Assembly: GCA_023663225.1 (NCBI GenBank)
Contig: JAMPHU010000036.1
Coordinates: forward strand, 1 to 32,170
Direction of reading: 5' to 3'
Source: Candidatus Gastranaerophilales bacterium
GTDB lineage: Bacteria; Bacillota; Clostridia; Lachnospirales; Lachnospiraceae
DNA: 32,170 nucleotides
The stretch's first letter is position 1. The number at the start of each line of letters is the position of its first letter. The notes below the pieces were generated by a model. It worked only from the letters and a program-made list of their open reading frames with translations, was not told the origin of the DNA and did no database searches. Shown piece by piece: positions 3,043-20,988 of this stretch. A program made the translations under genes and the position numbers.

Positions 3043-4918
3043 AGAGGTCGGTTGGCATACGCTGCAGTTTATGAGCGGACTGGCGGAGCATTTGAGGCCC
3101 AAAGAGCCTATGACGATCAGCGAGTGGGCCGATCGATATATGGTTTTGCCGGAAGGCTCCAGCGAGGCCGGAAAATTTTCGACGGCTGCGATTCCCTATC
3201 AAAAAGCGATCATGGATGCCATTACGGATCCGGAGGTTATCGATGTGGCGGTGATGAGTTCTGCCCAGGTTGGAAAAACCACAATCATAATGTGTGGAAT
3301 CGCATACTACATTGATTATGAGCCTGCAACACAGATGCTTGTCATGCCGACAATTACAGATGGAGAAAAATTTTCAAAGACAAGATTCTCCAGGATGATA
3401 GCAGATGTTCCGCAGCTCGCGTCAAAGGTGGCGGATGCCAAGACGCGCAGCTCCAGTAATACGATCATGTTAAAAATCTATCCGGGCGGGAGTATCTCCA
3501 TTGGCGGAGCCAATTCCCCCAGCTCGCTTGCGTCGGATCCGCGCAGAATCATATGGATGGATGAAGTGGATCGCTTCCCTGAGTCGGCGGGAAGCGAAGG
3601 CAATCCGATCAAGCTTGCGGAAAAAAGAGCCACAAGTTACTGGAACAAAAAACATATCAAGACATCCACCCCCACGATTGCAGGGCGCAGCAAGATTGAG
3701 GATGCTTATAACGAGGGCAGTATGGAAGTATGGAATGTACAATGTCCCGAGTGCGGAGCATGGCAGCCGTATGATTTTAGGAGAGTTGACTTTAAATCGG
3801 TATCCATGGCTTGCATGGGATGTGGAGTGTTGATCTCGGAAAGGGAGTGGAAAGACAGTAATCACAAGTGGATAGCGCTGCATCCTGAGCGGAAGAAAAA
3901 GCGGTCTTTCCGCTTGAACGAGCTCGCCAGTCCGTTTGTGGATTGGGAGGATATCATAGCCGATTTTAGAAAGGCTTCCGACAGACTGAAGCGGTTCCAT
4001 GATCCGGAGGACATGAAGGTATTCATCAATACGGTATTGGGAGAAACCTGGGATGAAACCAAATATGTAGATAACGCAGTGGATGAGGATACCTTGGAGG
4101 CAAGGGCGGAAGTGTATGCGGCGGAGATTCCCGATGGGGTGTTGCTGCTCACGGCGGCGGTGGATGTACAGGATAATCGTTTCGAAGTGGAAATCCGGGG
4201 TTGGGCGAGAGGCTATGAGACGTGGGGCATCTATAAAACAGAGATCTATGGGGATCTGATCACAGATGAGCCATGGGATGCTTTAGAAGCGTATCTGAGC
4301 CAGCCATTGCATTTTGAAAACGGAACAGAGTTGAATGTGGCAGGTTTTACAGTTGATACCGGCGGGCATTTCACCAATCGGACATACAAGTGGATCAAGA
4401 AGATGAAGGCAAAAGGGAAAAATTGCTACGGAATAAAGGGGTATGCCGGAAAACCGGATATTCCTTTGCTTCACCACAGAACCGTCGTTAATATCAAAGA
4501 AGTGAAAAACGGGAAAGAGTTTGTTGTTGACCACACACTAATCCAAATCGTCGGCGTTGACTCCGGCAAAGAGGATATCACAAACAGGCTGAAAATCAAA
4601 AAGATCGGTGTCGGTTATTGCCACTTTCCTGCGGGAGACGGCAGAGGGTACGATGAAGCATATTTTAAGGGCCTGCTATCAGAAAAGCAGATCACGAAAA
4701 AAGTGAAAGGTGTCATCAAAAAGGTGTGGGTGAAAAAGAGCGGCGTAAGAAATGAGCCGCTCGATCTGTTCAACTACAATTATGCTGCGCTTGAGTTACT
4801 GCGGCCGGATTGGGACAAGCTGGAGGAAAAACTAAAGCAGGGTAAGAACTATATGCAGCGGCCTCAGAAGATCAGGGAGAGAACGAGGCGAAAATCTATC
4901 AAGGGAATCGAGGCGTGA
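3020..4918 (+). CDS. terL: Terminase large subunit, lambda gpA family
   Basis: About 632 residues. The ATPase domain has a Walker A variant SSAQVGKTT and Walker B RIIWMDEVDR. A zinc-knuckle-like CPECG...CMGCG pair follows around residues 240-275. The C-terminal nuclease part includes AAVDVQDNRFEVEIRGW and FTVDTGGHFTN, with acidic residues expected to bind metal. This enzyme cuts concatemeric DNA and pumps it into the procapsid through the portal. Three ATGs lie close together (3020, 3026, 3032) and overlap the end of the small subunit gene; none has a strong ribosome site, so the exact start is uncertain and translational coupling is likely. Confidence 0.95.
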   Translation: MKMRMKNREVGWHTLQFMSGLAEHLRPKEPMTISEWADRYMVLPEGSSEAGKFSTAAIPYQKAIMDAITDPEVIDVAVMSSAQVGKTTIIMCGIAYYIDYEPATQMLVMPTITDGEKFSKTRFSRMIADVPQLASKVADAKTRSSSNTIMLKIYPGGSISIGGANSPSSLASDPRRIIWMDEVDRFPESAGSEGNPIKLAEKRATSYWNKKHIKTSTPTIAGRSKIEDAYNEGSMEVWNVQCPECGAWQPYDFRRVDFKSVSMACMGCGVLISEREWKDSNHKWIALHPERKKKRSFRLNELASPFVDWEDIIADFRKASDRLKRFHDPEDMKVFINTVLGETWDETKYVDNAVDEDTLEARAEVYAAEIPDGVLLLTAAVDVQDNRFEVEIRGWARGYETWGIYKTEIYGDLITDEPWDALEAYLSQPLHFENGTELNVAGFTVDTGGHFTNRTYKWIKKMKAKGKNCYGIKGYAGKPDIPLLHHRTVVNIKEVKNGKEFVVDHTLIQIVGVDSGKEDITNRLKIKKIGVGYCHFPAGDGRGYDEAYFKGLLSEKQITKKVKGVIKKVWVKKSGVRNEPLDLFNYNYAALELLRPDWDKLEEKLKQGKNYMQRPQKIRERTRRKSIKGIEA

Positions 4919-17438: not shown

Positions 17439-17660
17439 ATGGGCGGATATTATTACACTACCAAGCAAGGCGATATGTGGGATTATATCGCATGGCTGGT
17501 TTACGGCAACGAAAAAATGATAGAGAAACTGCTCAATGCAGAGGAGAACAGGGAGATCATGGACACTTATATTTTCTCAGCGGGCGTAAAAGTATGGTGT
17601 CCGGAAGCGGCAGAACAGACAGCGGCAAGTGACTTGGCGCCATGGAGGGAGAATCAATAA
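17439..17660 (+). CDS. Tail protein X, LysM-like
   Basis: 73 residues, ATG at 17439 behind AGGAG. The sequence 'YYTTKQGDMWDYIAWLVYGNE' and 'FSAGVKVWCPE' match the P2 gpX family, a LysM-like fold at the baseplate or tube base. The stop codon overlaps the next gene start (TAATG). Members link tube, hub and central spike. Context fits: between the tape measure and the hub protein. Confidence 0.88.
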   Translation: MGGYYYTTKQGDMWDYIAWLVYGNEKMIEKLLNAEENREIMDTYIFSAGVKVWCPEAAEQTAASDLAPWRENQ

Positions 17661-18676
17661 TGGAAACGATGCGGTCAAAATTGATCTTGGAGTACAACGG
17701 AGTGGATGTGACGGATGCGATAGCTGACTCCTGCAATTCCTTTACATGGAACGATAATGCCTCCGGAACATCGGACACTTTCTCCATGAATCTGGATAAT
17801 ATCGATCAGAAGTGGATGAACGGCTTCTATCCGTCAGACGACGATACCTTCAAGGCGTGGATACAGCTCCAGGAATGGGCGGCGGACTATAAGCAGGGGA
17901 AGTTATATTGCGGCTGTTTTATGATCGATTCGCTGCAATACAGAGGGTTTCCGGAGACGTTAGAGTTGTCCGGAATCTCCACGCCGATCAACAGCGCTTT
18001 TAATGTGAAGCAAAAGAGCCGAACCTGGAGCAAGACGACGCTGCAGACAATATTGAGCGATATTGCAAAGGACGCGGGGATTAATCTGGTATTCGATGCG
18101 GAGGATATCCGTATCGATTCGGCCAACCAAACGGGAAAGACCGATCTTGCATTTGCCTGTTCAATGTGCAGCGAGTATGGACTATCCATCAAGCTGTACA
18201 ATAAAAAAATGGTGGTGTACGACCAGAATGTGTATGAGCGCAAAGCGGCAAGATATGAGATTACGCATGGTCAGTTGGGGGGAAGTGACACCTATAAAAT
18301 CACAAAGCAGGCGACAAGTCTGTACGACAGTGTAAAAATTCAGTATACCGACGGAAAAACCGGAGGTACGCTGACATATGTGTATACGATTCCCGGGAAA
18401 GCAGGCAACCGCCAGATGATCCTCACGACAAAGGCTGAATCTTATGCGGACGCTGAAAAAAAGGCAAAAGCCGCTCTCAGGGAGAATGTGAGGGAAAGCA
18501 GAAAGATTACACTTAAGATGATGGGAAGCGCCAAGTATATGGCTGCGGATTGTTTCAATTTATCCGGCTTCGGGAAGTTGGATGGAAAATATTTTATCGA
18601 AAGCGTGACACACCAAAAGGCCGGAGGACAATATACCGTTTCCCTGACGGCGCATTTGGCCGTGACTGATTTTTAG
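17660..18676 (+). CDS. Baseplate hub protein, P2 gpD-like
   Basis: 338 residues; ATG at 17660 overlaps the gpX stop, and GGAGGGAGAA lies upstream. The beta-rich order matches phage late control gene D / tail hub proteins: N-terminal 'LILEYNGVDVTDAIADSCNSFTW', middle 'TLQTILSDIAKDAGINLVFD' and 'SMCSEYGLSIKLYNKKMVVYD', then 'YKITKQATSLYDSVKIQYTDGKTG' and 'KLDGKYFIESVTHQKAGGQYTV'. It forms the ring that joins tube and spike. The gene after it is interrupted by the RHH-Rha cassette, which separates it from the spike gene. Confidence 0.9.
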   Translation: METMRSKLILEYNGVDVTDAIADSCNSFTWNDNASGTSDTFSMNLDNIDQKWMNGFYPSDDDTFKAWIQLQEWAADYKQGKLYCGCFMIDSLQYRGFPETLELSGISTPINSAFNVKQKSRTWSKTTLQTILSDIAKDAGINLVFDAEDIRIDSANQTGKTDLAFACSMCSEYGLSIKLYNKKMVVYDQNVYERKAARYEITHGQLGGSDTYKITKQATSLYDSVKIQYTDGKTGGTLTYVYTIPGKAGNRQMILTTKAESYADAEKKAKAALRENVRESRKITLKMMGSAKYMAADCFNLSGFGKLDGKYFIESVTHQKAGGQYTVSLTAHLAVTDF

Positions 18677-18695
18677 GAGATTAATGTTATTTTCC

Positions 18696-18774
18696 TTATT
18701 GACTTTTGAACACTCCGATTTAACGCAATCAATATTGATGTGGTTAGAAAGGTTCAAAAAGTTATTGACTTTTG
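18696..18774 (+). repeat. Duplicated -35 region
   Basis: TTATTGACTTTTG occurs at 18696-18708 and again at 18762-18774, 66 bases apart. Each contains TTGACT, but only the second has a good -10 box. A regulator could bind both copies, or a promoter has been duplicated. Confidence 0.7.
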
Positions 18775-18800
18775 GGACACATAAGTTATAATAAACTTAT
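18765..18800 (+). promoter_or_regulatory. Promoter with operator palindrome for the RHH-Rha cassette
   Basis: -35 TTGACT (18765-18770), 16-bp spacer, -10 TATAAT (18787-18792). A perfect 7-bp inverted repeat, ATAAGTT (18781-18787) and AACTTAT (18794-18800), brackets the -10 box with a 6-base centre. This is the expected place and symmetry for a ribbon-helix-helix operator that shuts its own promoter. Confidence 0.8.
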
Positions 18801-18825
18801 GGAACACGAAAGTGAGGTGATGAAT

Positions 18826-19002
18826 GTGAGTCCAAGAACTGGAAGACCAATAGTGGGGGGAAAAAAGGATATTGATGTTAAAGTCCGATTTGACAAGGAA
18901 ACGCATGATAAACTTCTTGAATATTGCGAAAAGCACAGTGTAACAAGGACAGAAGCAATAAGAAGCGGCGTTAGACTATTGGTTTCAGATGAAAAGAAAT
19001 AG
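18826..19002 (+). CDS. Ribbon-helix-helix repressor, Arc-type
   Basis: 58 residues. I chose the GTG at 18826 because GTGAGG ends 8 bases before it; the ATG at 18820 is too close and an ATG at 18799 would be at the transcription start. The N-terminal arm 'SPRTGRPIVGGKK' is basic, then comes the strand 'DVKVRFDKET' and helices 'HDKLLEYCEKHS' and 'RTEAIRSGVRLLV'. These proteins bind as dimers to inverted repeats; the palindrome over its own -10 box is the obvious target. It is followed by the Rha gene in the same unit. It sits in a late tail operon in an AT-rich cassette, like Arc in phage P22. Confidence 0.88.
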   Translation: MSPRTGRPIVGGKKDIDVKVRFDKETHDKLLEYCEKHSVTRTEAIRSGVRLLVSDEKK

Positions 19003-19037
19003 AGCGTTACCGCCCTGAGAAAGTAGTAAACGCTCTA
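19000..19037 (+). repeat. 9-bp inverted repeat between the RHH and Rha genes
   Basis: TAGAGCGTT (19000-19008) and AACGCTCTA (19029-19037) can form a stem with a 20-base loop. No T run follows. It could be an mRNA stability or attenuation element, or a second operator for the RHH protein. Confidence 0.6.
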
Positions 19038-19118
19038 TCAACACCAATCCGCAAGGGAATTGATAAATACAATATATCATTTTTCTTGTGGAAATTCAAG
19101 TACAAGGAGAATGATATT

Positions 19119-19880
19119 ATGCTAAAATTAGAGCAAACCATTGACAGTCGAGAAGTAGCGGAAATGGTAGAAAAGACACATTCAGAGCTGCTCAAAGATA
19201 TGCGCCGATATACGAGCCAATTTAACGAAGGGAAAATTCCCTCCGTTGAATTTTTCACAGAAAGTACCTATGTTGACGCTAAAGGCGAAACCCGACCTTG
19301 CTACCGTATCACAAAGAAAGGCTGTGAATTTATCGCTCATAAGCTGACAGGAATAAAAGGAACAATCTTTACCGCCCGTTACATCAACCGCTTTCACGAA
19401 ATGCAGGACATTCTTTCACAGAAGGAGAGTGAACCGCAGTTGCCGTGGTTTATCCACAAATTTAGGGGTAAATACATTATGAAGTTTGAGGACTTTACAA
19501 AGCTGACAGGTGTTAATCCGTCCGGCAACTATACCGCATGGAAAAGAGCAGACAGATTACAGGGCGGTCTTGATTATAACGGCTGGGCATGGTATACAAC
19601 GGTCAACAGGGAGGAATTTGAGAAAGAATATGGTTTTGACTATGGTGACGATAAATGCATGTTTTATCTTTATCCCTGTGGTATCAGAAGGGCATTGGAG
19701 ATATACAGACGGGAAAGTGGTAGAAAAATAAACCAAGGGGTCTACAACATGATTTTGGATGGATTAAAAACTATTGAACCGTCTAAGAAAGGATTGGCAG
19801 TAAAGAACCCAGAACATATTGAAATAGGCAGCGAATACGGAAAGTTTCCAGTCCAGATTAAGATTATTGTGGGAAAATAA
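19119..19880 (+). CDS. Rha family antirepressor
   Basis: 253 residues; ATG at 19119 behind AAGGAGAATGATATT. The N-terminal ~90 residues are the Rha domain: 'DSREVAEMVEKTHSELLKDMRRY', 'SVEFFTESTYVDAKGETRPCYRITKKGCEFIAHKLTG' and 'FTARYINRFHEMQ'. Residues 110-205 form a second domain with 'YIMKFEDFTKLTGVNP' and 'YPCGIRRALEIYRRE'. Rha proteins are phage antirepressors or regulators acting on the lysis-lysogeny choice. Here the gene is downstream of an RHH gene under an operator-controlled promoter and has its own terminator. Such proteins are usually elsewhere in the early region; the position inside the tail operon is unusual. Confidence 0.85.
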   Translation: MLKLEQTIDSREVAEMVEKTHSELLKDMRRYTSQFNEGKIPSVEFFTESTYVDAKGETRPCYRITKKGCEFIAHKLTGIKGTIFTARYINRFHEMQDILSQKESEPQLPWFIHKFRGKYIMKFEDFTKLTGVNPSGNYTAWKRADRLQGGLDYNGWAWYTTVNREEFEKEYGFDYGDDKCMFYLYPCGIRRALEIYRRESGRKINQGVYNMILDGLKTIEPSKKGLAVKNPEHIEIGSEYGKFPVQIKIIVGK

Positions 19881-19907
19881 AAGGCTTTATTAAAAATTCA
19901 AATTCAG

Positions 19908-19946
19908 AAAACTACTGTCCATAGCAATAGATGGCAGTAGTTTTTA
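19908..19946 (+). terminator. Rho-independent terminator of the RHH-Rha cassette
   Basis: AAACTACTG plus CCAT (19909-19922, one bulged T) pairs with ATGGCAGTAGTTT (19931-19943), followed by a T run. It closes the cassette just before the spike gene's ribosome site. Late transcription through this region must pass it, so it may also act as an attenuator. Confidence 0.88.
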
Positions 19947-19964
19947 TTATGGGAAGGAGGCATC

Positions 19965-20339
19965 ATGGTATCTTTATATTACGCGAAAATATCAACAATC
20001 AATTATAAGGCGGGCACGGCCGGAGTGACGCTTGAGGACAGGGAAAAACAGGTGATTCAGGATGTGCCTTTTTTGGCTGCTTTCTACGAAATGCCGAGTC
20101 CTGGAGATACTGTGGCGGTGTTGTTTGAGGAGATCGCCGGACAGATCGGGAAGGGCGTCATACTGGGGAAGATTTTCTTGAGTGGCAAACCGCCTGGGAA
20201 AAGCGGGCCGGATATTTTTTATAAGCAATTTAAAGATGGAGCAAGTGTCATGTACAGCACGTCCTCGCAAGAACTGGAGATAACGGCCAGGAAGCTTGTT
20301 GTAGACGAGTTGCTGTACAATACTTTAACACAGAGGTAA
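19965..20339 (+). CDS. Baseplate spike protein, gpV-like
   Basis: 124 residues; ATG after GGGAAGGAGGCATC. The first ~70 residues are OB-fold-like: 'YYAKISTINYKAGTAGVTLEDREKQVIQDVPFLAAFYEMPSPGDTVAVLFEE', then 'GVILGKIF'. A short tail follows. P2 gpV is longer (211 residues) and ends in a beta-helix; here only the OB part and a short C-terminal strand region are present, so this may be a short spike. The gene order, between hub and gpU/gpW, supports the assignment. Confidence 0.82.
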   Translation: MVSLYYAKISTINYKAGTAGVTLEDREKQVIQDVPFLAAFYEMPSPGDTVAVLFEEIAGQIGKGVILGKIFLSGKPPGKSGPDIFYKQFKDGASVMYSTSSQELEITARKLVVDELLYNTLTQR

Positions 20340-20343
20340 AGGC

Positions 20344-20988
20344 ATGGCAAATGTGGGAAGTTTCGGAGATGTAGATTTCTTGTGCATTTCCGTCAATCGG
20401 AAAAATCAAATACTTTCATTTCACGATTTGACGCGCAACGCCACGGCATCCTTTGCAGAACATGAGAGAAACGGCGCAAAGGCATATCTGGAATTTGGCG
20501 GAGACGGGTTGGATGAACTGGCATTGACCATAGAGGCAGATGCACAGTATGGAATCAAGCCATTGGAGGTCGAGGATAAATTATTTGCAAAGAAGTCAGC
20601 GGGACAGGCTGAAAACTTTGTGATTGGCGGGAAACAGGTGGGAGATAATCCCTATGTGATCACGAGCATCGTTGAAACCTTCAAAGCATTGCATGTGGAC
20701 GGAAGGCCCATAAAGATATCTTTCCAGTTGACGTTGAAGGAGTATGCGAATCAGGTGGCGGCGATCGACATTATTCCGCCTGCGAGACAGTTGGGAGACG
20801 GCATACAGACAGCGAAGGCAACCAGTAGCGATACCTACGTTGTTGTCAAAGGGGATTGTCTCTGGAACATCGCAAGAAAGTTTTATGGGAGCGGGCAGGA
20901 GCACACACGGATTTACAATGCGAACACAGGTCAGATTAAAGATCCGAATCTGATCTATCCAGGGCAGGTGCTTATCATTCCCAAGTAG
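20344..20988 (+). CDS. Tail protein gpU fused to a C-terminal LysM domain
   Basis: 214 residues. Residues 1-150 match P2 gpU-like proteins: 'YLEFGGDGLDELALTIEADAQYGIKPLE', then 'NPYVITSIVETFKALHVDGRPIKISFQLTLKEY'. After a short linker, residues 163-213 form a LysM motif: 'YVVVKGDCLWNIARKFYGSG' and 'NLIYPGQVLIIPK'. Gram-positive contractile-tail systems often attach LysM domains to tail or baseplate proteins. The domain could bind peptidoglycan or mediate baseplate assembly. Confidence 0.85.
   Translation: MANVGSFGDVDFLCISVNRKNQILSFHDLTRNATASFAEHERNGAKAYLEFGGDGLDELALTIEADAQYGIKPLEVEDKLFAKKSAGQAENFVIGGKQVGDNPYVITSIVETFKALHVDGRPIKISFQLTLKEYANQVAAIDIIPPARQLGDGIQTAKATSSDTYVVVKGDCLWNIARKFYGSGQEHTRIYNANTGQIKDPNLIYPGQVLIIPK

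Follow-up and report, generated by a model that had tools for sequence, protein, structure and literature searches.

Lying between two tail genes of the window (the whole stretch of DNA analysed, 32,170 nt, which is one entire contig, G000:C41, of a 111-contig genome) is a gene cassette that we read, with a probability of about 0.77, as a late-operon moron carrying an immunity-I-like switch: a ribbon-helix-helix (RHH) repressor, an antisense RNA, an mRNA helix (helix II) that alternates with a Shine-Dalgarno pairing, and the antirepressor Rha. The immI region of phage P22 is the standard example of an antirepressor held under an RHH repressor and an antisense RNA. The cassette is real and conserved, and it is more complete than first noted. 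The sequences establish which parts it has and in what order, how they are conserved, the covariation and the strand to which each helix belongs; transcripts, RHH binding, the working of the switch, the antirepressor effect and a role towards other phages are inferred. A sequence-only reading had given the order promoter, RHH gene, Rha gene and terminator, sited between the tail genes D and V, and gene, promoter and domain calls bear this out; to those four parts we add a predicted antisense RNA gene in the gap between RHH and Rha, and an RNA structure ahead of Rha whose alternative pairings exclude each other.

Parts of the cassette and its repressor

The features are as follows, with coordinates counted in the window.

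17642..18676, plus strand: tail hub gene D, left flank (PF05954; PHROG 52, tail)
18765..18792, plus strand: cassette promoter, TTGACT-16-TATAAT (11/12 consensus positions; retained in the relatives G062 and G065)
18773..18781, plus strand: operator repeat 1, TGGGACACA, in the spacer that separates the -35 box from the -10 box (read by eye)
18800..18808, plus strand: operator repeat 2, TGGAACACG, directly 3' of the -10 box (read by eye)
18826..19002, plus strand: RHH (Arc/CopG-fold) repressor gene, GTG start, 58 aa (PHROG 876, transcriptional repressor)
18993..19064, minus strand: predicted antisense RNA of about 72 nt, folding into two hairpins (minus-strand promoter and terminator; fold -22.8 kcal/mol; ends inferred)
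19000..19037, minus strand: helix I, formed by 19000-19008 and 19029-19037, the hairpin of the antisense terminator (covariation, A-C/G-U asymmetry, U-tract opposite the last RHH codons)
19049..19091, plus strand: helix II of the mRNA, 19049-19065 with 19075-19091 (folding and covariation)
19071..19099, minus strand: antisense promoter, TTGAAT-17-TATATT (promoter scan; position and 17-nt spacing conserved over pairs)
19074..19117, plus strand: alternative hairpin, helix II 3' arm (19074-19089) with the Rha Shine-Dalgarno region (19102-19117) (dG -18.2 kcal/mol, z -5.3)
19119..19880, plus strand: Rha-family antirepressor gene, 253 aa (PF09669, E 1.8e-23; PHROG 373, anti-repressor)
19909..19945, plus strand: terminator AAACTACTGTC...GGCAGTAGTTTTT, hairpin and T-run (read from sequence; kept in G065, loop changed)
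19965..20339, plus strand: V-like baseplate gene, right flank (PHROG 9992, weak, E 0.0011; 80% nucleotide identity to G065)

The start given earlier for the cassette, 18696, takes in the promoter, listed here at 18765, together with an extra upstream copy of TTGACTTTTG. This word occurs twice ahead of the RHH gene (18699-18708 and 18765-18774, 66 nt apart), and the promoter scan returned no promoter at the upstream copy (18699-18708). The junction from D to the cassette measures 88 nt in the window and is much shorter, 21 nt, in G065. At the other end, the terminator is missing from the terminator scan, the likely reason being a loop longer than the 8 that the scan allows. Domain and PHROG matches downstream of the V-like gene identify gpU-LysM, gp25-like W and J; the gpU-like tail protein (20344-20988) has a fused LysM domain. 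The rest of the window's genome yielded no second cassette copy and no other Rha domain.

The AlphaFold2 single-chain model of the RHH protein (pLDDT 81) has helices at residues 24-37 and 41-57 and no strand assigned, and its top Foldseek matches are RHH proteins (ORF56, AmrZ, P22 Arc and CopG-like; probability about 0.9, E 0.17-0.7, with none at E<=0.001); judged by this model, the protein would have the strand-helix-helix fold of RHH repressors. It has no match above cut-off to the Pfam RHH model, and in a PDB sequence search RHH matches were weak (best E 0.029) and Rha matches chance-like. The N-terminal domain of the window Rha scores 83.3 bits against Rha/Phage_pRha (PF09669), whose cut-off is 29.9. 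Antirepressor activity is the label of this family, and by analogy Rha may act on this or other prophages.

For comparison, 258 loci gave 168 distinct Rha starts, and at 53 of them an RHH gene (E<1e-3) lies no more than 450 nt upstream; the RHH-Rha gap is 80-180 nt in 45 of the 53, and 108-132 nt in 40 of these 45. Clustered at 75% identity of the gap, the 45 pairs form 32 groups, with a median pairwise gap identity of 55%.

The -35 and -10 boxes are kept in the window, G062 and G065, and by eye paired words flank the -10 box in each: TGGAACAC twice in G062 and TGGTAATCA twice in G065, at the same spots as the window's repeats. Under the script's own choice of RHH starts, operator repeats (direct or inverted) were present at p<=0.05 in 30 of the 45 pairs, a count outside which the window falls because the script's RHH start was wrong there. 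Once RHH starts had been re-chosen, a promoter was obtained in 38 of the 45 loci, and among these RHH likeness goes with operator-word likeness (r 0.381 over 703 comparisons, 0/1000 permutations). Where gaps are under 65% alike the correlation persists (r 0.274 over 638 comparisons, 0/1000 permutations), carried mostly by the 13 of 638 comparisons with RHH proteins over 60% alike: there the mean operator-word match is 6.5, against 3.6-4.1 in the lower bins, and words scoring 7 or more are shared in 6/13, against 12/625 below. Operator words thus appear to covary with the RHH protein, which probably binds its own promoter. At one locus (L043, about 4660-4702) the promoter upstream of RHH is apparently reduced, by eye, to one repeat with no -10 box, and looks as if deleted between its two operator repeats.

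An antisense RNA gene and two exclusive pairings in front of Rha

The RHH-Rha gap is 116 nt long in the window, and its minus strand shows a sigma-70-like promoter and a terminal hairpin with a U-tract. We predict that an antisense RNA of about 70 nt is encoded there, with a terminator end that overlaps the RHH stop codon. Promoter scores of at least 10 occur on the antisense strand in 32/45 gaps and on the sense strand in 0/45 (means 10.4 and 7.4, with shuffles at 7.5); the antisense spacing is 17 in 43/45 pairs, and the antisense -10 box is 38-52 nt away from the start of Rha in 40/45. Thirteen pairs score below 10, including the window (9.5, p 0.095 alone). Among 108 control Rha genes without RHH within 450 nt, only 9 reach 10 on the antisense strand; this control is impure, as L106, L111 and L166 match the RNA model, their RHH being cut off or of another type. 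Past antisense helix I, at least 5 T in 8 nt are found in 44/45, by a search that favoured T-rich tails. The RHH proteins end in lysine, or lysine and an acidic residue, in 40/45 cases, which the U-tract on the opposite strand may explain.

The Shine-Dalgarno sequence of Rha (19104-19113) lies outside the predicted antisense RNA (19064-18993), and in the window it and the 3' arm of helix II form 16 consecutive pairs at -18.2 kcal/mol. This pairing beats shuffles (p<=0.05) in 38/45 pairs, with significant pairing absent in the other 7, and helix II does so in 43/45. With a fixed window, Shine-Dalgarno pairing is found in 36/45 pairs (mean z -3.1) against 8/108 Rha genes without RHH (mean z -0.21); as a group, these 108 of the 168 Rha upstreams have neither antisense promoter nor Shine-Dalgarno pairing. 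At equilibrium the window leader favours the closed state by 3 kcal/mol (-38.4 against -35.4 for the open one), and it adopts the closed hairpin when the part covered by the antisense RNA is blocked in folding. This small advantage of the closed state is a point against the switch, in that the open state would have to arise while the mRNA is being transcribed. Of helix II the predicted antisense RNA covers the 5' arm alone, so that the 3' arm should be released when it binds; and as the Shine-Dalgarno sequence is an alternative partner for that 3' arm, the antisense RNA probably shuts Rha off indirectly.

The mechanism that we propose has two brakes. The RHH protein would repress its own promoter through the two short-word copies on either side of the -10 box, and a predicted transcript of about 70 nt, running from the gap promoter to the RHH stop codon, would pair with the RHH-Rha mRNA. 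In free mRNA helix II would form first and leave the Rha Shine-Dalgarno sequence open; once the antisense RNA takes the 5' arm, the freed 3' arm would fold onto the Shine-Dalgarno sequence and shut Rha translation, a step predicted from two conserved, mutually exclusive pairings. To judge from P22 and other antirepressors, both brakes would hold in a lysogen, and a fresh host without RHH or antisense RNA would see a burst of Rha acting on phage repressors. The RNA brake may be needed because readthrough of the late operon passes the RHH operator.

By its sequence, two exclusive pairings of one arm, with the antisense RNA covering just the partner by which the ribosome site stays free, would place the leader with antisense-induced ribosome-site sequestration of the pSK41 type: for the antisense RNA pSK41 RNAI of staphylococcal RepA_N plasmids, the cited part of PMC5703833 gives the proposal that it brings about a stem-loop in which the ribosome-binding site is sequestered. 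The pSK41 RNA differs in controlling a plasmid replication gene, and that part of PMC5703833 names no RHH partner for it. By the same source, as far as cited here, the window switch shares its control logic with pT181 as well, where the same pre-emptor logic terminates transcription (PMC5703833). The antisense RNA could accordingly act by premature termination, the Shine-Dalgarno hairpin being a terminator and not a ribosome block, and 10/45 pairs have a run of at least 5 T within 12 nt before the Rha start; but 27/45 have not even a 4-T run there, and TATGCT stands directly 3' of the hairpin in the window, which leaves termination unlikely, if worth keeping in mind.

The control head in other phages

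RNAalifold found no structure in a MAFFT alignment of 33 diverse gaps, because MAFFT left the helices unaligned. A model (R1) built from 6 close sequences gave 46 matches at E<=1e-4 across 51 sources, and from those 46 a second model (R2) was built; the window, which is outside the training set, matches R2 with 49.8 bits (E 1e-6). Searches against Rfam 15 gave only chance-level matches for window positions 18600-20050 and matched no family for the gap RNA of 16 relatives.

Genome scans with R2 found matches in at least 8/138 at the level of the genus (E<=0.01), at least 9/299 in the family and at least 4/398 in the phylum (both E<=0.001), counts that are lower bounds; the loose first look missed the window's own genome. 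An RHH gene stands directly upstream in 20 of 27 R2 matches examined. Without four that duplicate training rows and two that had been located by way of RHH, 21 matches remain, of which 15 have RHH; two of these 21 are known only as second matches in fetched loci. Three R2 matches (L264, L265 and L266) look false. Scoring of 21 modules gave Shine-Dalgarno pairing in 16, antisense promoters of at least 10 in 16 and sense promoters in 0; minus the training copies L282, L260 and L263, the counts are 13/18 for pairing and 14/18 for antisense promoters. With the window RHH alone as query, viral contigs yielded 3 loci; the RHH alignment was too varied for a scan by DNA pattern.

The same RHH-RNA head precedes other antirepressor families: P22_AR_N (L181, L133), ORF6N (L258, L261) and Bro-N (L278). 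In L218 the RNA lies 3' of a Rha frame and 5' of an ORF6N protein, and in L290 it lies 5' of a Bro-N protein with no RHH called. R2 matches at E<=3e-5 in 6 of 8 phage regions examined, which were taken from 35 and 15 records with RHH matches; LF2 and Javan751 are not convincing. In Javan119, Javan197, MismyG and phi30c the head is followed by a short frame and then a gene annotated as antirepressor, which is Bro-N with ANT in the three cases tested among these four. Two Ruminococcus phages with related Rha were set aside: their Rha lies in an HTH-regulator region, with no RHH annotated before it and no R2 match.

Several further observations concern the surroundings of the head. The first frame 3' of the RNA is often a short one of 67-91 aa that lacks a confident Pfam match (L157:3773-3973, L153:1108-1323, L273:2292-2540, L274:2297-2569), and in streptococcal phages the antirepressor gene comes next after such frames. 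Two others under the same head (L134:3145-3477 and L156:3332-3670; 111 and 113 aa) are alike by eye and have no Pfam match. Paired RHH-RNA units with different RHH sequences stand close together in L171, L153, L150, L261, L291, L131, L120 and L133, and a skipping-rope RNA (RF02924, 63 bits) at L171:2903-2982 lies upstream of a tandem module.

The pairs tend to stand among late genes. The neighbours of 20 of the 45 pairs, a hand-chosen sample with one nearby frame of 110 aa or more each, comprise 12 head, tail or lysis genes, one HNH/terminase-like gene (L012) and 7 with no match or no known role, and no repressor, integrase or replication gene is among them; against this, an integrase lies some 2.2 kb upstream of one pair outside the 20 (L168). 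A second sample, drawn differently (random choice of 20 Rha genes without RHH, and the largest neighbour of each), has 12 neighbours with roles as repressor, antirepressor, integrase or in DNA metabolism, and the remainder are a portal (L149), weak late-type matches (L196, L134, L215; L134 has a module nearby) and 4 unknown. By annotation, the unit lies between hyaluronate lyase and hyaluronidase genes in Javan119 and Javan197, between minor capsid and scaffold in MismyG, and after the lysin in phi30c.

A toxin-antitoxin-like arrangement, in which RHH would be the antitoxin and Rha the toxin of an addiction unit, draws on the RHH antitoxins among the fold matches and on a 2009 survey that, in its cited part, counts phage repressor-antirepressor pairs (Xre with Bro-N) as toxin-antitoxin-like (PMC2701414). 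We think it improbable in view of the long structured gap of nearly fixed length with its predicted antisense gene, the joining of the head to several antirepressor families, and Phage_pRha being the sole Pfam domain in the window Rha.

Both helices covary, in alignments that were fitted to the structure model and hence lean towards structure: over the 46 R1 matches 91.4% of cells are paired, against 67.7% when shuffled and 36-53% when slid, with a covariation score of 0.682 against 0.235 and both sides changing in 27/28 pairs (shuffles reach 22.7); over the R2 alignment (39 matches) the figures are 88.7%, against 53.9% and 40-45%, and 28/28 against 25.1. The inner two pairs of helix I are weak in covariation. 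A strand test, which is independent of the absolute level of pairing, makes use of the fact that any G-U pair on one strand corresponds to an A-C mismatch on its complement. In helix I the ten outer pairs have 1 G-U and 17 A-C (the two inner pairs 3 and 7), against 78 and 26 in helix II and its top (Fisher p 2e-8); in 31 rows unlike any training row, which include three suspected false matches, the counts are 2 and 19 for helix I (inner pairs 1 and 7) against 46 and 11 for helix II (p 1e-8). This asymmetry indicates that helix I is kept in the antisense strand and helix II in the mRNA. It bears on a further alternative, that the conserved RNA is only a sense-strand leader and that the antisense promoter arises incidentally from A/T-rich pairing that is conserved. 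The antisense -10 and -35 boxes do lie in and beside the 3' arm of helix II, so that structure constrains both; but the avoidance of sense G-U and tolerance of A-C in helix I is the mark of folding in the antisense strand, and the T-rich tails after antisense helix I (in a search that favoured them) and the almost invariable 17-nt spacing also oppose this explanation, which we regard as very improbable.

The sequence-only reading would have been weakened by random, unrelated genes at this place in relatives; what the relatives examined have is the same cassette (one) or a clean empty site (four distinct). The former is G065, with the cassette at the same D-V joint. Five loci share the tail module but not the cassette (G058, G055, L061, L062 and L064), and in these D and V stand 11 nt apart, measured from the last sense codon of D to the start of V with the stop codon included; L061 and L064 are alike, hence four distinct junctions, and L063 stops within D and is uninformative on the junction. 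In two empty-site genomes, a genome search marks one stop codon within each match to a hub D relative (L079 in G058, L080 in G055).

Over alignment columns, nucleotide identity between the window's genome and G065 amounts to 81% and 80% in the flanking genes D and V, to 91% and 86% in the two parts of Rha and to 86% in the terminator stretch, and drops to 54% in RHH and 47% in the gap; at the protein level it is 44-45% for RHH and 87% for Rha. From this profile it follows that RHH, operator and antisense part were exchanged, or diverged much faster, while Rha stayed. G062 is close to the window in promoter (86%), RHH (95%) and gap (83%), and its Rha differs (71% in the N-terminal part); upstream of the promoter identity is only 51%, and the nearest long frame downstream of its cassette is a portal gene. 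That the cassette is a decayed insertion without present role is hardly credible: relatives live without it and a terminator within the tail operon might be costly, but Rha is 91%/86% identical to that of G065 where the flanks are 80-81%, the RHH and Rha frames are both open in the window, and operator words track RHH.

Known systems and a possible class of second-immunity modules

In P22, by the annotation of NC_002371, immI consists of arc, a 70-nt sar whose terminator end lies over the arc stop codon, ant and a terminator, between genes 16 and 9; the 'ant moron' is described, in the cited part of PMC2629481, as a late-operon insertion with a high rate of genetic flux. The likeness to immI first seen in the window holds, and now extends to RHH, an antirepressor-family gene, own promoter, own terminator and a late-gene site, plus a predicted antisense RNA ending at the RHH stop. 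In both, RHH lies directly 5' of the antirepressor on the same strand, with one promoter ahead of both; an antisense RNA, only predicted in the window, lies between repressor and antirepressor and ends at the repressor stop; and the cassette is a moron among late genes. The two differ in the following respects. P22 sar starts right before the ant start codon and covers the region in front of ant, from a promoter inside ant and across a gap of 68 nt, whereas the window's antisense promoter lies within the 116-nt gap and the predicted RNA ends short of the Rha Shine-Dalgarno sequence. P22 mnt, a second, divergent RHH repressor, has no counterpart in the window: no RHH-like frame occurs between D and the cassette promoter among frames of 40 aa or more. 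The P22 Ant family is P22_AR_N and that of the window Phage_pRha, although relatives (L181, L133) carry P22_AR_N under the same head. As it lacks these three P22 features (mnt, an antirepressor of the Ant family, an antisense RNA that reaches across the ribosome site), the window cassette is not P22 immI by strict membership; R2 had no match to the P22 region up to E 1.

Other systems share some of these elements. The copG-rnaII-repB operon of pMV158 joins an RHH repressor and an antisense RNA that both restrain the downstream gene (cited parts of PMC5703833 and PMC4485353), a double brake like that predicted here, differing in that the pMV158 target is a replication initiator. Antirepressors of the Gifsy and Fels phages lie outside the immunity region and act on other prophages, and are small proteins under LexA or a phage repressor; the cited part of PMC3121763 mentions no antisense RNA for them. 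Among the open-licence PMC papers listed, judged by title and abstract opening, we found no RHH-Rha unit with an antisense RNA.

We put at even odds that the cassette represents a class of second-immunity modules in Gram-positive phages that has yet to be described, with a mobile head (RHH, operator and antisense leader), interchangeable antirepressors (Rha, P22_AR_N, ORF6N, Bro-N/ANT) and late-operon insertion, in which RHH, operator and antisense RNA would change together while the antirepressor stays (as between G000 and G065), as if they were incompatibility groups deciding whose antirepressor a resident prophage silences.

The plan of P22 immI is thus found in many Gram-positive prophage sequences and with several antirepressor families; with it come a different predicted antisense mechanism and an RNA without a match in Rfam. 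An RNA brake against readthrough is offered as a hypothesis for the late-operon siting of such units. Prophage-to-prophage control becomes testable in commensal gut and oral bacteria, including the annotated Streptococcus phage MismyG.
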